A stretch of DNA of 35,517 bases from Desulfobacterales bacterium GWB2_56_26 (GTDB lineage Bacteria; Desulfobacterota; Desulfobulbia; Desulfobulbales; Desulfocapsaceae), in the NCBI GenBank assembly GCA_001799365.1, contig MGTI01000013.1, positions 13,479 to 48,995 on the forward strand, in the 5' to 3' direction. The stretch's first letter is position 1, and each line of letters starts with the position of its first letter. The notes under the pieces are model-generated. The model had not been told where the DNA came from. It did not search any database and was given only the letters and a program-made list of their open reading frames with translations. Shown piece after piece: positions 4,502-16,018 of this stretch. The position numbers were made by a program, and so were the translations under genes.

Positions 4502-5128
4502 ATGTCTGAACGCGAAACATTCATGCCGGATGAAGTTTTGGCCGCCAGTCTGGCCAAAAAAGGACCGAAGCAGTACACCCTCTGGGTCGACCTTGAATAC
4601 TGCGTGGGTTGCCACGCCTGTACCATGGCCTGCAAGGCGGAAAACAATACACCCCTGGGAGTGGATTACAACCGAGTGACCGAGGTGGAAATCGGTGAGT
4701 TCAAGGATCCCCAAAAAAGTCCGGATGTGAGGGTCTACTTTATTCCAATGCCCTGCATGCACTGAGGCAAGCCTGCCTGTAAGGCAGCTTGCCCGGTCGG
4801 GGCAATCACCAAGAGAGAGGAAGACGGGATCGTTCTCATCAACAAGGACAAGTGCATCGGGTGCCGCTACTGCGCCTGGGCCTGTCCCTATGGCCATCCG
4901 CAATTCAACGCCGAGGCCAAGGTTACGGAAAAGTGCATCCTGTGCGTACACAGGCTGGAAAAAGGGCTGCGCCCTGCCTGCGTTGACGCATGCATCGCCC
5001 GTACCAGATTTTTCGGCGAGATGGATGATATGGTGAAATTGATAAGAAAGAAACGATCGACCAGGGTTTCTCTCGGTTTCATCGGCGGAGAAACCACAAC
5101 CGATCCGTCTGTGATCTATACCAGGTAA
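4502..5128 (+). CDS. four-cluster ferredoxin subunit with selenocysteine at a cluster-ligand position
   Basis: A 208-residue protein read through TGA at 4763-4765 (Sec88). Four cluster motifs are visible in order: YCVGCHACTMACK (about 34-45), PCMH-Sec-GKPACKAACP (85-98), KCIGCRYCAWACP, and KCILC with ACVDAC. The standard second motif is CxxC-x4-CxxxCP, so Sec occupies the second ligand. A stop there would remove three of the four cluster blocks; the rest of the family sequence continues perfectly in frame. The ATG has an AGGAGG site overlapping the stop of the molybdopterin gene. The protein is the electron-transfer partner of that subunit (DmsB/TtrB/PsrB type). There is no obvious Tat signal, as is usual for subunits exported with their partner. 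A selenolate-ligated cluster is inference. Confidence 0.88.
4763..4793 (+). promoter_or_regulatory. Sec TGA and SECIS-like hairpin of the Fe-S subunit
   Basis: Directly after the TGA lies an 11-bp stem, GGCAAGCCTGCC (4766-4777) with GGCAGCTTGCC (4783-4793), with one bulged C and a TGTAA loop carrying G at its second position. The stem begins with no spacer after the TGA, tighter than the classical layout, so part of it would have to melt as the ribosome arrives. Confidence 0.65.
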
Positions 5129-6387: not shown

Positions 6388-7077
6388 ATGAATACTTATC
6401 ACACATCGTTTGGTGAACGCCGGGACATGTACCACTTCCTTTCCGGCCTTTATCTTGGGCCGCCGACTCCGTCAATGCTGGCTCTGATCAAGGAAAAAGG
6501 CCCGGCTGCATTTTTCCCTGTCGATGAGGAATCATCCCCATGGGTGAATGAAATGGAAAAATTTCGACACGAACTCATGGCAATGGCCGACCCCGCCTCG
6601 GAGATGGAGGCGGAACATACCTCTCTTTTTGTTTTGCCTTCAGGTGTCCTGCCGCACGAGGCCGTCTATCTCGATGAAAAAAAACGGCTGGGGGGAAAGA
6701 TCACCATGGCGGTTGCCGGATTTTACAGGGATGCGGCTATTGAAATAAGCGACGCATGTATCGAAATGCCCGACCATCTCGGCATGGAGCTCGAGTTCAT
6801 GGCGCGCCTGTGCGGACTGGCGGAAACGTTTCTGCAGGGAAACGATCAAATCTCGCTCCATCTTTGCCTGAAATTGCAGCAGGATTTCATGAGCCGGCAT
6901 CTTGGTCTCTGGGCGCCCCAGTGCTGCAATGAAATATTACGTCAAGCGACACACGGCCTATACCGTGCGGCAGCAATGATCACCCTGTCATTTCTTGCCG
7001 CCGAAAAGGAATACCTTCAAGAGTGCCTCGAACAGACAGGCAAGGAGAATTGGCTATGGGAAAGTTCAACAGTTTGA
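6388..7077 (+). CDS. TorD/DmsD-family molybdoenzyme maturation chaperone
   Basis: A 229-residue, mostly helical cytoplasmic protein. It carries TorD-family features: MYHFLSGLYLGPP at the N-terminus, E-x-x-S-L-F then LPHEAVYLDEK in the middle, and MPDHLGMELEFMARL near residue 130. The family binds the Tat signal of a partner molybdoenzyme and holds it until cofactor insertion. The obvious client is the Tat-exported molybdopterin protein at 1502-4489. It starts 7 bp after the polyferredoxin stop, and its 3' end overlaps the cytochrome gene by 22 bp. Family assignment is firm; the client is inferred from position. Confidence 0.88.
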   Translation: MNTYHTSFGERRDMYHFLSGLYLGPPTPSMLALIKEKGPAAFFPVDEESSPWVNEMEKFRHELMAMADPASEMEAEHTSLFVLPSGVLPHEAVYLDEKKRLGGKITMAVAGFYRDAAIEISDACIEMPDHLGMELEFMARLCGLAETFLQGNDQISLHLCLKLQQDFMSRHLGLWAPQCCNEILRQATHGLYRAAAMITLSFLAAEKEYLQECLEQTGKENWLWESSTV

Positions 7078-7973
7078 TCGGCGCATTGTCTCTGTTGTTC
7101 GTTGCCGGCTTATGCCTTCCGCTACGGGCGGAAGAGACGGATCCCGGTGAAAGGCCGGGGAAGCTTTATCCCGATCCTCACAGCGTTCATTTGAGTGTAA
7201 TGGATCAGAACGTCCCAGAACTTAACCGGGATGATGTCGTGGATTGGGCGGCTCTCATCCGTGAGATGCAGAAGGTATCGCCGGATGTATCTCTCAGCCC
7301 CGAGATCAAAATGCTGCTCGACGTGGTCACTCCCGCTGCGATGAGCGAGAGCGACCAGGACGCCTTCATCAATGAACTGAATACCATCCTCAGGTTCTGG
7401 GCCGAAGCCGAGAGAAGTAAGGAAACAGTGCAGGATGATCTGGGTCTCAGATGGCGGCTCCGGGCCCGGCTGATCGGCTATTTGCCGAGCCTTGCGCCAA
7501 GACAGGCCGGTTCCGAATTGCCGGCGATGACCTGCCTCACATGTCATAGCGGCGAAGAACTGCAGGCCGGAACGTATCTAAAGAGGCAGCGCCTGGCCCC
7601 TCTCAACACGGAAACCGTTCTCGACTGTGTCGCCAAGGCGCTGGCGGAAGGCAGGAGGTTGGAGGAATGCGAGAAACTTGCCGAAACACCGACGCAGACG
7701 GAAATCGAGCCCTATGGGGGATCGGGCAATTATATCCAACGAAAGAAAAACGATACCGACATCAGCTTCCACGTCGGGATTCAGCCTGAGAATCCGTATA
7801 CATTCAAGCCGCTGTTGAAGAATCTTTTATGTGTCGAATGCCACAGTGTCGGCAGAAAAATCAATGAAATCAAAAAGAAAGACGGCACAGTGAAAAAGGT
7901 CCCTCTTTTTTACGGGCTTGGGGCGGGAGTCGCCGACTCGGCGCAAGAGGCCACCCATTTGGGGGAGAATTAA
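7056..7973 (+). CDS. periplasmic cytochrome c-like protein with two CxxCH motifs
   Basis: A 305-residue protein with a signal peptide (hydrophobic residues about 5-22, ending LRAEE). Two haem-attachment motifs are present: CLTCHS near residue 165 and CVECHS near residue 262. The ATG at 7056 is chosen because it has an AAGGAG site and gives a clean signal peptide. No wider family was recognised. Between the chaperone and an outer-membrane barrel, it could carry electrons across the periplasm to or from the molybdoenzyme. Low-complexity KINEIKKKDGTVKK follows the second haem motif. Haem binding follows from the motifs; the partner is inference. Confidence 0.78.
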   Translation: MGKFNSLIGALSLLFVAGLCLPLRAEETDPGERPGKLYPDPHSVHLSVMDQNVPELNRDDVVDWAALIREMQKVSPDVSLSPEIKMLLDVVTPAAMSESDQDAFINELNTILRFWAEAERSKETVQDDLGLRWRLRARLIGYLPSLAPRQAGSELPAMTCLTCHSGEELQAGTYLKRQRLAPLNTETVLDCVAKALAEGRRLEECEKLAETPTQTEIEPYGGSGNYIQRKKNDTDISFHVGIQPENPYTFKPLLKNLLCVECHSVGRKINEIKKKDGTVKKVPLFYGLGAGVADSAQEATHLGEN

Positions 7974-11071: not shown

Positions 11072-12475
11072 TCAATCATCGGAGATATCATCGGCACAGG
11101 GGAAATCGTGTTCTTTCAGTTTTCGCCATAACGTTCCCCGGCTGACCCCCAATCGTTTGGCGACATCCTTTTTCACCCCGCCCATCTCCTCGAGCGCCTG
11201 GGCAATAAGCTCTTTCTCCATAGTTTTGATCTTCTCCGGGAGAGGCAAGGTATCAAGGGCCCCCGGACCGGCCTCGAGACCGCACTTTTTGCCCTCCGTC
11301 TCTGCTGCCCTTGCCATAGCCTCCGGAAGGTCGTAAGGCTCAATGATGTTGCCCTTGCAGAAAGTAGCAGCCATTTCAATCGCATGCTTCAGTTCCCGGA
11401 CATTGCCGGGAAACTCGTGCGACATCAACACCCGCATGGCTGCCGGTGATACGGTGACTTGGGCGGTACCGTTTTTTTTCGCGATCTTTTCTGAAAAATG
11501 TCGCACCAGCAGAGGGATGTCATCCCGGCGCTGCCGCAAGGGAGGCAGGGTAATGGGCAGGACATTGAGACGGTAATAGAGATCCGCCCGGAAGCGATGA
11601 GCATCTTTTTCTTGCTCGAGATTTTTCGCGGTGGCATAAATAGTTCTGACATCGACCTTCACCGATTCATTGCTCCCCAAGCGTTCGAATGAAAGGTTCT
11701 CGATTACGCGCAAAAGTTTTGCCTGCAAGGCAAGAGGCATGTCGCCTATTTCGTCAAGAAAAAAAGTGCCGCCGTGGGCCGCCTCGAATTTTCCCATTCT
11801 TCGCTGTAAAGCTCCGGTGAAGGCACCTTTTTCATGCCCAAAGAGTTCCGATTCGAGCAGGGCTTCCGGAATAGCGGCACAATTGATTTTGACCAAGGGT
11901 TTATCGCGCCTGGCACTCAGTTCATGGATGGCGTTTACCACCAATTCCTTGCCGGTGCCCGACTCACCCTGGATAAGTACTGCCGAATCGGTTCGTGCCA
12001 CGGCGCTGATTTTTTCGAAAAGAGCCTCCATGACCGGCGTTTCCGCTATAATTTTTTCAGAAAAACGGCATTGCTGCAGTTCTTCTTTCAGTCTGGAATT
12101 TTCGCACTCGAGTTCTCGCTGTCTCAGAAACCGAGCGATGATCATTTGCAGTTCTTCCTGGTCGAAGGGCTTTGCCAGATAATCGTAGGCGCCATCTTTT
12201 ATGGCTGCGACCGCATTCTTCACTTCAGCGAAGGCAGTGATAATGACAATTCCCGTATCCGGTGAAAAGTTCTTCACCCTTCTCAAAACCTCAAGCCCGT
12301 CAGTATCAGGCAACCTTACATCGGTCACAACAAGATCGAAATATTGCTGTGCAGCGAGTTCGATACCCTTGGTGCCCTTATCGGTTGCAACAACATTGTA
12401 GCCGGCAGCCTTGAGGCCGTGCATAAGGCCCAGGCGCATGGATCGTTCGTCTTCGATCAACAATATTTTGTACAT
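11072..12475 (-). CDS. NtrC-family sigma-54-dependent response regulator
   Basis: A 467-residue protein with the three classical domains. The receiver (1-120) has acidic EDE near residue 9 and phospho-acceptor Asp52 in VVTDVRLP. The AAA+ sigma-54 activator domain (about 140-375) has Walker A GESGTGKE near 171, the GAFTGA sigma-54 contact loop near 221, and LDEIGD. A Fis-type helix-turn-helix near the C-terminus reads KKDVAKRLGVSRGTLWRKLK. No histidine kinase gene is in the window. It is divergent from the exporter operon at 12864, whose upstream DNA holds a near-consensus sigma-54 promoter and inverted repeats, so it probably activates that operon. Confidence 0.93.
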   Translation of the reverse strand: MYKILLIEDERSMRLGLMHGLKAAGYNVVATDKGTKGIELAAQQYFDLVVTDVRLPDTDGLEVLRRVKNFSPDTGIVIITAFAEVKNAVAAIKDGAYDYLAKPFDQEELQMIIARFLRQRELECENSRLKEELQQCRFSEKIIAETPVMEALFEKISAVARTDSAVLIQGESGTGKELVVNAIHELSARRDKPLVKINCAAIPEALLESELFGHEKGAFTGALQRRMGKFEAAHGGTFFLDEIGDMPLALQAKLLRVIENLSFERLGSNESVKVDVRTIYATAKNLEQEKDAHRFRADLYYRLNVLPITLPPLRQRRDDIPLLVRHFSEKIAKKNGTAQVTVSPAAMRVLMSHEFPGNVRELKHAIEMAATFCKGNIIEPYDLPEAMARAAETEGKKCGLEAGPGALDTLPLPEKIKTMEKELIAQALEEMGGVKKDVAKRLGVSRGTLWRKLKEHDFPCADDISDD

Positions 12476-12863: not shown

Positions 12864-15206
12864 ATGAAAAAATTTTCTCTGGTGGGATTTTCGGTTGATC
12901 ATCCGAAGCTGGTCGTCTTTCTTTCTCTTCTGATCACAGTCGTTTTCATGACGCAGTTCCCGAAGATCAGGATCGACACCAACCCGAAGAACATGCTTCC
13001 GGCCGACTCCGATGTGCGGGTATGGAACGACGAGGTGGACAGGACCTTCGGCCTTTACGAAGACACCATCGTCCTCGCCGTGGTCAACGAGAAGGGCGTG
13101 CTGAATACGCAGACTCTCGCAAAGATCGGCCGGATCACTGACGGCATACTCGGCATCAAGGGAGTGGCAGCGAGGGACGTGAACAGCTTTCCCACCATCA
13201 CCAACGTGACGGCCGAAGACGGCATATTGCGGGTGGCGCCCCTCATGACCAAGGTTCCAGAGACCGCGGAGGAGCTGGAAGCCCTGCGCCGGCAGCTCTT
13301 CGGCAATCCCCTCTTCGTCGACCGGATTATCTCCCGGGACGGCAAGACGGCCGCGATCTACGTACCGCTGGAACAAGGCGCGAGCGGCAAGGAGGTGGCC
13401 GACCGGATCCGGGAGATCGTCGGGAACGAGCAGGGGGACGAGAAGTATTTCATCGCCGGCGATCCGGTCGCCCGGGATACCTTCGGCGCCGAGATGTTCA
13501 AGCTCATGGCGATCTTCGCCCCGATCGCGGGGATGATCATGCTGCTGGTGCGCTACCTGATGTTCCGGGACCTCTTTCTCTCCGTTGCCCTGATGATGGA
13601 TGCGATGATCAGCATCGTCTGGAGCATGGGGCTGCTGATCGGGCTCGGCTTCCCCGTGCACATCATGGCCTCGATGGCCCCGGTCTTTTTGATGGCGATC
13701 GCCACCGACTCCATCCACATCTTCAACGAGTTCTATTTCCGCTACCGGGAGCGAAAGGACAAGCGGGCCGCCATCATCGAAACGATGCGGGCGGTGGCCA
13801 GGCCCGTGCGTTATACGGCGCTCGCGACCGCCGCGGGTTTTGCCGTGCTGCTCTTTATGAACATCGTGCCCGTGCAGGTCTTCGGCGGCGCCATCGCCTT
13901 CGGCACGGTGGCTCTCAGGATCCTCAGCTTCAGCTTCATCCCCGCCATGTTCACCTTCGTGAAAGATGAAAAGATCGCCCGAATCGCCGCAAGCGAGGAT
14001 GCCGCCGCCGGCCGGACCTCGCGGTTTCTCCGCTCTCTGGCCGGCTGGGGAGCGCACCACCCGAAGGCCACGGTGCTGGCCTGCCTGGCGCTCTTCGTCG
14101 TGGCGCTCCTCGGGATCTCCCGGCTTCATGTCAACAACAACATGGTGGAATGGTTCAAGCAGGAGAGCGAGATCCGGGGCGCCGACCGGGAGATCAACCG
14201 GGCCCTCGGCGGCACCTCCCTCGGCTATGTCGTCGGCATCTCCGAGGAGGAGGGGTTTGTCAAAAATCCGGAGACGATGAAGTATCTGGAAGGGCTCCAG
14301 CGCCATCTGGAACAGCTCCCGGTAGTCGGCAAGACTTTTTCGGTAGCCGATTACGTCAAGCGGATCAACCGCGTTCTGCACGATGACGATCCCCGGTACG
14401 ATCAGATTCCGGACTCGAAGGAGGCGATCGGCCAGTACCTCTTTCTCTTCAGCATGTCGGCCAAACCGTCCGATCTGGACAACGTCGTCGACCCCTCCTT
14501 CCGGGAGGCGAACATCTGGGTTCAGCTCAAGACGTGGGACGCCCAGGGGATGGAGACGGTTATTCGCGCCGTGGACGAATACAGGAGGACGCACCCCATC
14601 GCCATGGAGCTGAAGCCCGCGGGGATTGCTTACTTCAACCTGGTGTGGAACCATGAGGTCCTGTGGGACATGGTCAAGGGCTTCATCCTGGCGCTGGTGG
14701 TGGTTCTGGCCATCCTCGCCTTCGACTTCCGGTCGATCAAGTGGGCGCTCATCGGCTATGCACCCCTCCTGTTCACCATCCTCCTCATCTACGGCGCCAT
14801 AGGCTACGCCGGCAAGGACTTCGACATGCCGATATCCGTGCTGTCGTGCCTCTCCCTCGGCATGGCCGTCGATTTTGCGATCCATTTTGTCAGCCGGTTC
14901 CGCCAACGATTGGCCTCGGATCCAAACGCCGATCTCACCGAAGCCCTGTTGTGGACCGCTGCCCGGCCGGGCAAAGGGATCCTGCGCAATGCCATCCTCT
15001 TTGCGGCGTCATTCGCGGTGATGCTCTTTGCCCCCCTCACCCCCTATATCACGGTCGGGGCCTTCATCGTCACCATGATGCTCCTGAGCGCCGTCATGAC
15101 GATCATCTTCCTGCCGGCCCTGATCACCCTGGCGCAGGGGTGGCTGCCCGAGTTGAGGCAGCGGGCCAGCGATCGGCAATCGGGGAAACACAATTTCGTT
15201 CAGTAA
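12864..15206 (+). CDS. MMPL/RND-superfamily exporter
   Basis: A 780-residue inner-membrane protein with the duplicated RND layout. TM1 (about 15-33) and a large periplasmic loop precede a five-helix bundle near 210-370. TM7 (about 405-425) and a second loop precede another bundle near 610-765. It resembles the MMPL group that moves lipids or hydrophobic compounds (HpnN-like) rather than AcrB drug pumps, and no membrane-fusion gene is present. A weak GAGGAA ribosome site precedes the ATG. The next two genes encode a LolA-like periplasmic protein and an outer-membrane barrel, together forming a possible trans-envelope route. The cargo is unknown. Confidence 0.88.
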   Translation: MKKFSLVGFSVDHPKLVVFLSLLITVVFMTQFPKIRIDTNPKNMLPADSDVRVWNDEVDRTFGLYEDTIVLAVVNEKGVLNTQTLAKIGRITDGILGIKGVAARDVNSFPTITNVTAEDGILRVAPLMTKVPETAEELEALRRQLFGNPLFVDRIISRDGKTAAIYVPLEQGASGKEVADRIREIVGNEQGDEKYFIAGDPVARDTFGAEMFKLMAIFAPIAGMIMLLVRYLMFRDLFLSVALMMDAMISIVWSMGLLIGLGFPVHIMASMAPVFLMAIATDSIHIFNEFYFRYRERKDKRAAIIETMRAVARPVRYTALATAAGFAVLLFMNIVPVQVFGGAIAFGTVALRILSFSFIPAMFTFVKDEKIARIAASEDAAAGRTSRFLRSLAGWGAHHPKATVLACLALFVVALLGISRLHVNNNMVEWFKQESEIRGADREINRALGGTSLGYVVGISEEEGFVKNPETMKYLEGLQRHLEQLPVVGKTFSVADYVKRINRVLHDDDPRYDQIPDSKEAIGQYLFLFSMSAKPSDLDNVVDPSFREANIWVQLKTWDAQGMETVIRAVDEYRRTHPIAMELKPAGIAYFNLVWNHEVLWDMVKGFILALVVVLAILAFDFRSIKWALIGYAPLLFTILLIYGAIGYAGKDFDMPISVLSCLSLGMAVDFAIHFVSRFRQRLASDPNADLTEALLWTAARPGKGILRNAILFAASFAVMLFAPLTPYITVGAFIVTMMLLSAVMTIIFLPALITLAQGWLPELRQRASDRQSGKHNFVQ

Positions 15207-15217
15207 AGGAGGACACA

Positions 15218-16018
15218 ATGAGAATCCTGTTTGCATGTTGCTTGATGGCAGTTTCGACGCTCTTCTTCTCACCGAATTCCTATGGCCTGGAGGCAAGGGA
15301 AATCATCCGGAATTCCCAGGCGGCTTTTCTCTACCCCGGCGATGATTTCAAGGCCAGGGTGCTGATGAAGCTCGTCGGTAAAGGCGGCCAGGAGAGGATC
15401 AGAGAGTTGACTCTCCTGCGGAAGAATTATGGGGAGACCGGCGGCGACCAGAAGTATTTCATGTACTTTTTCCAGCCGCTGGATGTGAAGGACATGACCT
15501 TCATGGTCTACAAATACCCGGGCAAGGACGACGACCGCTGGCTTTTCATCCCCGCCCTCAACATGGTCAGAAGGATTGCCGCCCAGGACAAGAGATCGAG
15601 CTTCGTCGGCTCTGATTTCACCTATGAGGACGTTTCCGGGAGGGATCCGGAAGAGGACACTCACGCTATCGCCAGGGAGGAGAAGCTGGGCGATCGGGAC
15701 TGCTACGTGATCAAAAGCACGCCGAAAGAGGGGGGGATGGAATACGAATACAAGCTCTCCTGGATCGACAAGGTCACCTTCCTGCCGGTCAAGGAGGAAT
15801 ACTACGACCGCCAAAGTGAACTGTACAAAGTCTTTACGGCCGAGGAAATGGCGGAGGTGAAAGGGTTCCCGACGGTGACGAAAAGATCGATGAAGAACCT
15901 GCAGAGCGGCCACAGGACGGAGGTAACCTACCTGAAAACCGATTACAACCTCGGGGTCGGCAACAGCCTGTTTACCGAGCGGTTTCTCAAACAGCCGCCG
16001 AAGAAATGGATCGATTAG
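15218..16018 (+). CDS. periplasmic outer-membrane lipoprotein-sorting (LolA-like) protein
   Basis: A 266-residue protein with a signal peptide (about 1-23, ending NSYG). The mature part begins LEAREIIRNSQAAF and is beta-rich, with FMVYKYPGKDDDRWLFIPAL and RRIAAQDKRSSFVGSDF. These are typical of the LolA-like family found beside MMPL exporters. A strong AAAGGAGG site lies 6 bp before the ATG. It probably shuttles a lipid or lipoprotein between the exporter and the outer membrane; this is inferred from fold and neighbours. It is distinct from housekeeping LolA. Confidence 0.83.
   Translation: MRILFACCLMAVSTLFFSPNSYGLEAREIIRNSQAAFLYPGDDFKARVLMKLVGKGGQERIRELTLLRKNYGETGGDQKYFMYFFQPLDVKDMTFMVYKYPGKDDDRWLFIPALNMVRRIAAQDKRSSFVGSDFTYEDVSGRDPEEDTHAIAREEKLGDRDCYVIKSTPKEGGMEYEYKLSWIDKVTFLPVKEEYYDRQSELYKVFTAEEMAEVKGFPTVTKRSMKNLQSGHRTEVTYLKTDYNLGVGNSLFTERFLKQPPKKWID

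Follow-up and report, generated by a model that had tools for sequence, protein, structure and literature searches.

Predicted selenocysteine at a cluster-ligand position and near the molybdenum site in a respiratory molybdoenzyme operon of a Desulfobacterales bacterium

We identified an operon for a putative respiratory molybdoenzyme in which UGA appears to be read as selenocysteine (Sec) at two sites, one in the four-cluster electron-transfer subunit (B) and one in the catalytic subunit (A). The operon lies in a stretch of 35,517 nucleotides from the metagenome-assembled genome (MAG) of Desulfobacterales bacterium GWB2_56_26, which we refer to as the window. In the reading that we favor, with a probability of roughly 0.77, Sec88 of B is a ligand of an iron-sulfur cluster and Sec245 of A is a selenol near molybdenum. 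The support comes from sequence comparison and consists of the UGA codons themselves, the occurrence of these codons in distant loci, Cys at the equivalent positions of homologues, the presence of SelB, SelD and tRNA-Sec, and a conserved RNA segment downstream. Coordinates of the features are collected in Table 1.

Table 1. Features of the operon and its predicted recoding sites (positions in the window)
Feature	Start	End	Strand	Remarks
NrfD/DsrP-type membrane subunit, presumably quinone-reactive	258	1502	+	NF045798 (DsrP) 419 bits, above cut-off 350; PF03916
A subunit, molybdopterin oxidoreductase, TtrA/PhsA/ArrA-like, one predicted Sec	1502	4489	+	995 aa; RRTFLK twin-arginine motif
Second in-frame TGA, predicted Sec245 of A	2234	2236	+	301 in P0002 numbering; NHUSRC motif
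Candidate SECIS hairpin of A, CUUCUACA-GUGU-UGUAGAGG	2254	2273	+	18-37 nt past UGA
B subunit, four-cluster (16-Cys) ferredoxin-type electron-transfer subunit, one predicted Sec	4502	5128	+	208 aa
In-frame TGA, predicted Sec88 of B, second ligand column of motif II	4763	4765	+	column is TGA in 9 of 80 loci
First hairpin of B, directly past UGA	4766	4793	+	overlaps and competes with the hairpin at 4789-4805
Better SECIS candidate of B, UUGCCC-GGUCG-GGGCAA	4789	4805	+	24-40 nt past UGA
Polyferredoxin-like operon protein	5208	6380	+	ordinary TGA stop at end
TorD/DmsD-type chaperone	6121	7077	+	ORF as listed, true start probably later; TGA stop; below NCBIfam cut-offs
Outer-membrane porin-like protein (Alginate_exp)	7977	9719	+	Pfam

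An earlier note on this DNA had reported an in-frame TGA at 4763, at the second ligand of the second [4Fe-4S] motif of a ferredoxin subunit whose other ligands are all Cys and whose cluster blocks continue past the codon. Each of these statements held. The TGA lies in frame within the open reading frame of B, and translation through it gives a protein with the segment PCMH-U88-GKPAC, in which motif II has the layout C85-x2-U88-x4-C93-x3-C97. When 32 homologues are aligned and Sec is treated as Cys, the twelve columns 34/37/40/44, 85/88/93/97 and 118/121/124/128 are invariant and the four columns 145/148/160/164 are nearly so; the row of one locus (L058) stops earlier, at a contig end. It is this alignment of the 16 Cys columns that assigns U88 to the second ligand column of the second motif, and phmmer alignments likewise place it on a motif-II Cys of PsrB, ArrB, PcrB and EbdB. 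Beyond the TGA the frame completes motif II and contains motifs III and IV in full.

With its four Cys motifs and all 16 ligand columns present (Sec counted as ligand), B belongs to the four-cluster CISM subunits. It matches the Pfam family Fer4_11 with 101 bits. The best NCBIfam model is DmsB (TIGR02951), at 175 bits against a cut-off of 214, and TtrB reaches 150 bits against a cut-off of 416; since B scores below the cut-off of the best 25 of the 54 NCBIfam models matched, it is none of the enzymes that these models name. A twin-arginine motif was not seen at the start of B. The assembly contains no Cys paralogue of B, the next match being 40% identical. A structure model of B is weak (pLDDT 65), and its best PDB matches, which are formate dehydrogenase (FDH) beta-type subunits with Z scores of 6.7 or less (rmsd 3.4, 93 aligned), are only consistent with the assignment.

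Each cluster of a 2[4Fe-4S] ferredoxin is bound by three Cys from the start of one motif and by the final Cys of its partner motif. By this pairing rule U88 would share a cluster with C85, C93 and C128. The TGA at 4763-4765 is real and very likely encodes Sec, although the decoding itself is inferred. The proposal that Sec here replaces a cluster-ligand Cys is well supported by the alignments, since TGA and Cys alternate at this column in distant lineages, the Sec machinery is mostly present and the RNA of the Sec forms is more conserved. Bonding of selenium to iron at U88 is, however, inferred from homology alone, and we found no experiment on it. A shift of the redox potential caused by a selenium ligand is also an inference and has not been shown.

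The earlier note overlooked a second in-frame TGA, located in the gene for the catalytic subunit directly upstream of B. The standard code breaks A at this codon into two open reading frames. A is nearest to TtrA and PhsA, although its TtrA score of 359.5 bits is far below the cut-off of 1750, and the Pfam TAT_signal model is matched at 20.2 bits, slightly below its cut-off of 22.7. The sequence around the codon reads NH-U245-SRC248-AG, and in 31 aligned A proteins both Cys/Sec245 and Cys248 are invariant. Cys248 (304 in P0002 numbering) aligns to the Cys of the ArrA segment SHSSVCAE, chain residue 153, which in our reading is Cys193 of the precursor, the known Mo ligand. U245 is therefore most likely not the metal ligand itself but predicted to lie three residues before it, with the reservation that this stretch of the ArrA alignment is weak (16 bits). 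Because it precedes by three residues the Cys that most likely ligates Mo, we infer that Sec245 is a near-active-site selenol. A structure model of A was unusable (pLDDT 41). The standard-code list of open reading frames splits both A and B, and enzymes of this class may for that reason be mis-annotated.

The phylogenetic distribution of both codons was determined in a set of homologous loci, 80 of 135 having been kept from one scan of a genome collection. A search of homologues for TGA or Cys at the B column, which the earlier note had suggested, gave TGA in nine of the 80 loci (L020, L023, L024, L025, L028, L029, L030, L033 and L058) and Cys in the other 71. The nine comprise Nitrospirae relatives and a Desulfobacula (L033). 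The A column is TGA in five of the 80, four of which also have TGA in B (L023, L028, L029 and L058) and one of which does not (L054). Among loci readable at both columns, the window included, five are Sec/Sec (the window and the four just named), four have Sec in B only (L020, L024, L025 and L033) and one, L054, has it in A only; L030 has Sec in B, and its A gene is cut off. The remaining loci of the close clade have Cys in B, and Cys in A wherever A is readable. The nearest relatives of the window are Cys/Cys, with TGT in B and TGC in A in L017 and TGT in both genes in L018; between the window and L017, the B subunits are 85% and the A subunits 89% identical. UGA codons that align with Cys of homologues and are common to separate lineages, as found here, are what is expected of selenoprotein genes. 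Use of Sec by the host does not by itself explain Sec in B, since six of the more distant loci, all with a Cys-type B (L072, L079, L081, L087, L088 and L092), carry, in the same locus, a formate-dehydrogenase-type gene with the usual Mo-ligand Sec (ARIUHS).

Forty more distant loci (L056, L057 and L059-L096), with Cys in B, were excluded from the phylogenetic trees. The distribution of Sec on the B tree (43 rows, of which L032 and L105 are identical) needs four changes on the best tree, and at least two are forced by well-supported branches; the Desulfobacula lies apart. On the A tree (38 rows, 600 residues; not counting L044 and L046, which lack a readable column) one clade (100/100) unites the six Sec rows with the Cys-bearing L017, L018 and L025; it has three changes, for which one gain and two losses would be the simplest history.

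Occurrence of the operon is sporadic. At E <= 1e-70 and with the window's own genome counted, homologues are present in 2 of 395 genomes of the window's phylum and in 3 of 257 of its order, and its 14 congeners have none. The phylum of the Nitrospirae MAG that carries L028 (G012) has 13 in 395, six of them with TGA, and nearly all of the 13 are already within the 80 loci. Two congeners encode a counterpart of the 2-oxoglutarate dehydrogenase E1 found on the window's contig, with identities of 84% and 73%; the other 12 give no match at E <= 1e-100. The contig seems native to its genus, and the operon was likely acquired by horizontal transfer. A search of plasmids returned 713 records, one at 60-80% identity and 712 below 60%, and among the five listed none exceeded 41%.

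Bacterial SECIS-like hairpins carry a G at the start of the loop. This feature, kept in the Sec forms, is present at both UGA codons, with strong support in A and moderate support in B, where L033 is an exception. In A, all eight pairs of the candidate hairpin form in the six Sec rows and in the Cys relatives L017, L018 and L025, whereas the other 27 Cys rows form four to seven. Across the nine rows of this clade, the 13 codons (39 nt) past the UGA column have a nucleotide identity of 0.977 against a mean of 0.760, which makes this segment the most conserved of the gene (1 of 986). It is also at the top of the 986 segments in the use of identical codons at shared amino acids (0.932 against a gene mean of 0.509). 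For the six Sec rows alone the identity is 0.991 against 0.763, with 2 of 985 segments as high. In contrast, the same place is ordinary in the 27 other Cys rows, where 225 of 972 segments are as high. We regard the conservation downstream of the codon in A as strong evidence for an RNA element. The complete hairpins of L017, L018 and L025, which have Cys codons, are apparently relics of a lost Sec.

For B, the hairpin that had been noted immediately after the TGA does exist. However, its fold is unexceptional (-25.6 kcal/mol over 71 nt, z -1.8, with 11 of 200 shuffled sequences folding as well), and its mean pairing, out of nine pairs, is 7.8 in Sec rows and 7.0 in Cys rows (p 0.015 against 31 Cys rows, 0.11 against the 8 near ones). 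With UGA in the ribosomal A site, the 5' arm of a hairpin directly after the codon would sit inside the ribosome. We set this hairpin aside as the main Sec signal because the Cys homologues form it nearly as well and because of the position of that arm. The hairpin at 4789-4805 separates Sec from Cys genes better. All six of its pairs are present in eight of the ten Sec rows (five in L024, three in L033) and in none of the 31 Cys rows, which form three to five (Mann-Whitney p 3e-5 against all Cys rows and 0.002 against the 8 near ones, uncorrected for kinship). Its GGUCG loop, to our eye reminiscent of the E. coli fdhF loop, is also found in four Cys rows (L018, L026, L027 and L041).

Past the UGA of B, too, the Sec rows are the more conserved, at 0.880 against a mean of 0.771 in the ten Sec rows (12 of 195 segments as high), compared with 74 of 198 segments as high in 33 Cys rows. 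By inspection, minimum free energies over 45 nt from the codon did not separate Sec from Cys rows. Structural evidence for B is only modest, given that L033 lacks the shared hairpin and that four Cys rows have the loop; Sec insertion in L033 may depend on a different structure. Rfam gave nothing at gathering score at either UGA and only chance-level non-SECIS matches in loose scans, and it is unconfirmed that Rfam includes a bacterial SECIS model.

The components needed to decode UGA as Sec are mostly found in the window's own genome. SelB is present (352 bits), as is a tRNA-Sec (53 bits) that is cut at the end of contig C125 (L001) and shows UCA where the alignment puts the anticodon; ARAGORN did not call this tRNA gene. 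SelD (L122, C124:4916-5845) is itself a selenoprotein, with one in-frame TGA and a GUAAK active-site loop. SelB, SelD and tRNA-Sec being in place, what is missing is SelA, which was not found in this MAG (89% complete, 263 contigs). We read its absence as a gap in the MAG, because SelA is encoded by 12 of the 14 congeneric genomes, including all 10 of high quality. SelB does not discriminate between the two forms of the operon: in 22 genomes it is above the cut-off in nine of the ten other genomes with Sec in B or A but also in eight of the 12 Cys/Cys genomes. The Sec-bearing genome without SelB above the cut-off is G009 (L025), in which a small fragment at a contig end reads as EF-Tu.

The surroundings suggest an operon for an anaerobic respiratory reductase located in the periplasm, perhaps together with a sensor of its own; no substrate can be named. 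The DsrP score of the membrane subunit does not imply a DsrMKJOP complex. The region upstream of the window (L121) encodes a periplasmic binding protein of the phosphonate type, a histidine kinase and a multihaem cytochrome; next, ahead of the NrfD/DsrP gene, comes an Fe-S protein of the Fer4 type that has a twin-arginine motif and is DsrO-like by its place. The binding protein and the kinase are a possible oxyanion sensor as in TtrS-type systems. Open reading frames of comparable size, in a comparable order, follow B in the seven related loci that were inspected, and the porin-like frame has a counterpart of similar size and place in the seven listed, a comparison without homology data. The protein encoded at 7023-7973 (316 aa) has no Pfam or NCBIfam match at E 0.001. 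Farther downstream lie a sigma-54 response regulator (11072-12475), an MMPL-type transporter and a LolA-like lipoprotein-sorting protein (12864-16018). When the NrfD, polyferredoxin and TorD genes were scanned for a common in-frame TGA, only end stops or isolated cases were found. Identity as a selenate reductase was considered because of the homologue in Sedimenticola selenatireducens, whose genome paper favors a ser-like cluster instead, and is not adopted here.

We propose that the operon product is a molybdoenzyme of the PsrABC/TtrABC/ArrAB type, periplasmic by inference, composed of catalytic A, four-cluster B and the NrfD-type membrane subunit. UGA would be decoded as Sec once in A and once in B, presumably by SelB acting on the hairpins within about 40 nt downstream. 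In B, Sec88 would stand for one Cys of the motif-II CxxC and most likely bind the [4Fe-4S] cubane of that motif through selenium; this cubane would be part of the electron wire that links the membrane subunit to the Mo site. In A, Sec245 would provide a selenol near the active site, three residues before the likely Mo-ligand Cys. Since Sec and Cys have been exchanged at both sites over evolution, we expect selenium to be a tuner of rate, potential or damage resistance and not to be strictly required. A fuller form of the proposal is a two-selenium enzyme with a native selenium ligand to a cubane in the wire of B and, beside the Mo-ligand Cys, a selenol with the potential to enter a Se-S redox pair or to bind a chalcogen substrate; we consider the odds on this even.

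Several other explanations of the two codons must be weighed. The window comes from a metagenome assembly in 263 contigs and its closest relatives have Cys, so that a sequencing or assembly error, or a decaying pseudogene, deserves mention. Cys codons in close relatives, with this assembly in error, were what the earlier note would have accepted as refutation, and L017 and L018 do have TGT in B. Against the second half of that condition there is strong evidence, however, as distant loci share the TGA, the two codons fall at exactly both columns where other assemblies also show TGA, and the remainder of both frames is open and conserved. With TGA at the same codon in nine of 80 loci we do not find an error credible, although no probability was computed. 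It is very improbable, too, that UGA is read here as another amino acid, Cys or Trp, by general reassignment or suppression. Nothing specific favors it, UGA is the normal stop of two other genes in the operon, the genome has SelB, SelD and tRNA-Sec, and in A the RNA past the codon is conserved within the Sec clade but ordinary in the remaining Cys rows.

Other alternatives accept Sec and question what it does. One is a selenium gate, in which cells produce A and B at full length only if they have selenium, the codon being selected more than the chemistry of the residue. The occurrence of two separate UGA codons in one complex is compatible with this, as is the distant likeness of A to TtrA and to the DMSO/selenate families. 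Nevertheless, we judge it unlikely, as there is no evidence that a selenium compound is the substrate, the homologue in the selenate respirer Sedimenticola selenatireducens (L038) is Cys/Cys, and the genome paper of that species, in the part available, links selenate reduction to a ser-like cluster (PMC5052931). A less easily dismissed, though still doubtful, possibility is that Sec is made but its selenium at position 88 of B is functionally neutral, a drift from Cys to Sec tolerated in selenium-using cells. Repeated exchange of Cys and Sec in both trees and the Cys/Cys state of the closest relatives would fit such drift. However, the upkeep of Sec needs a conserved RNA element, which in the A clade is the most conserved stretch of the gene, and both sites are Sec not only in the window but also in L023, L028, L029 and L058. 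We thus retain the reading in which Sec88 is a cluster ligand and Sec245 a selenol near Mo.

Sec is usually catalytic. Here it is predicted at what is expected to be an electron-transfer position, as a ligand of a cubane, and at an unusual position near Mo, in an arrangement common to distant lineages. The high identity between the window and L017 in both subunits means that the effect of a selenolate ligand on a biological [4Fe-4S] cluster is directly testable with natural Sec/Cys pairs. If the reading is true, the switching of both sites between Sec and Cys over evolution supplies such pairs for probing selenium in an Fe-S wire.

Among the matches listed in our literature search, we found no report of a Sec pair in PsrB/TtrA/TtrB/PhsA/ArrB-type enzymes; preprints and most subscription journals were outside its scope. 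No such Sec is named in the accessible portions of PMC9723677, PMC2398784, PMC1242214, PMC12054007, PMC6019823, PMC2500031 and PMC10100899. A 2026 review tabulates 119 prokaryotic selenoprotein families; as far as its text was available, the table has no TtrA-, PhsA-, PsrB-, TtrB- or DmsB-type entry and includes FdhA, FwdB, HdrA, HgcB and an 'Fe-S cluster domain-containing protein' with UxxC (PMC13188914). The Fwd/Fdh-type homologues checked in PMC7331816 have, in the sections at hand, no Sec off the active-site column. The author of the earlier note knew of no Sec in this subunit family, a statement that needs qualification at the level of the superfamily. In the available part of the 2025 deep-Sep study, Sec is predicted in one COG0437/HybA-type protein, the 'FDH3 subunit beta' of Desulfosediminicola ganghwensis, which resembles B in this respect (PMC12013277). 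The same portion of that source differs from the present case in that the prediction concerns one genome, without TGA homologues elsewhere, and no Sec is named in a catalytic partner (PMC12013277).

The PsrB/TtrB/DmsB/ArrB-type (COG0437-like) subunits likewise have four Cys motifs, 16 Cys columns and a molybdopterin catalytic partner. B differs from them in that one Cys of motif II is predicted to be Sec. Formate dehydrogenase alpha is a MopB molybdoenzyme with a Sec decoded by SelB, as is predicted for A. However, the Sec of formate dehydrogenase is the Mo/W ligand, whereas that of A, which belongs to the TtrA/PhsA/ArrA branch, is predicted three residues before the presumed Mo-ligand Cys. 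HdrA, in which Sec is a cluster ligand, is a soluble flavin-bifurcating protein, and its architecture differs from that of B. According to the part of the 2026 review that was available, HdrA selenoproteins are nonetheless Fe-S proteins that, like B, have their Sec in a CxxU motif (PMC13188914).
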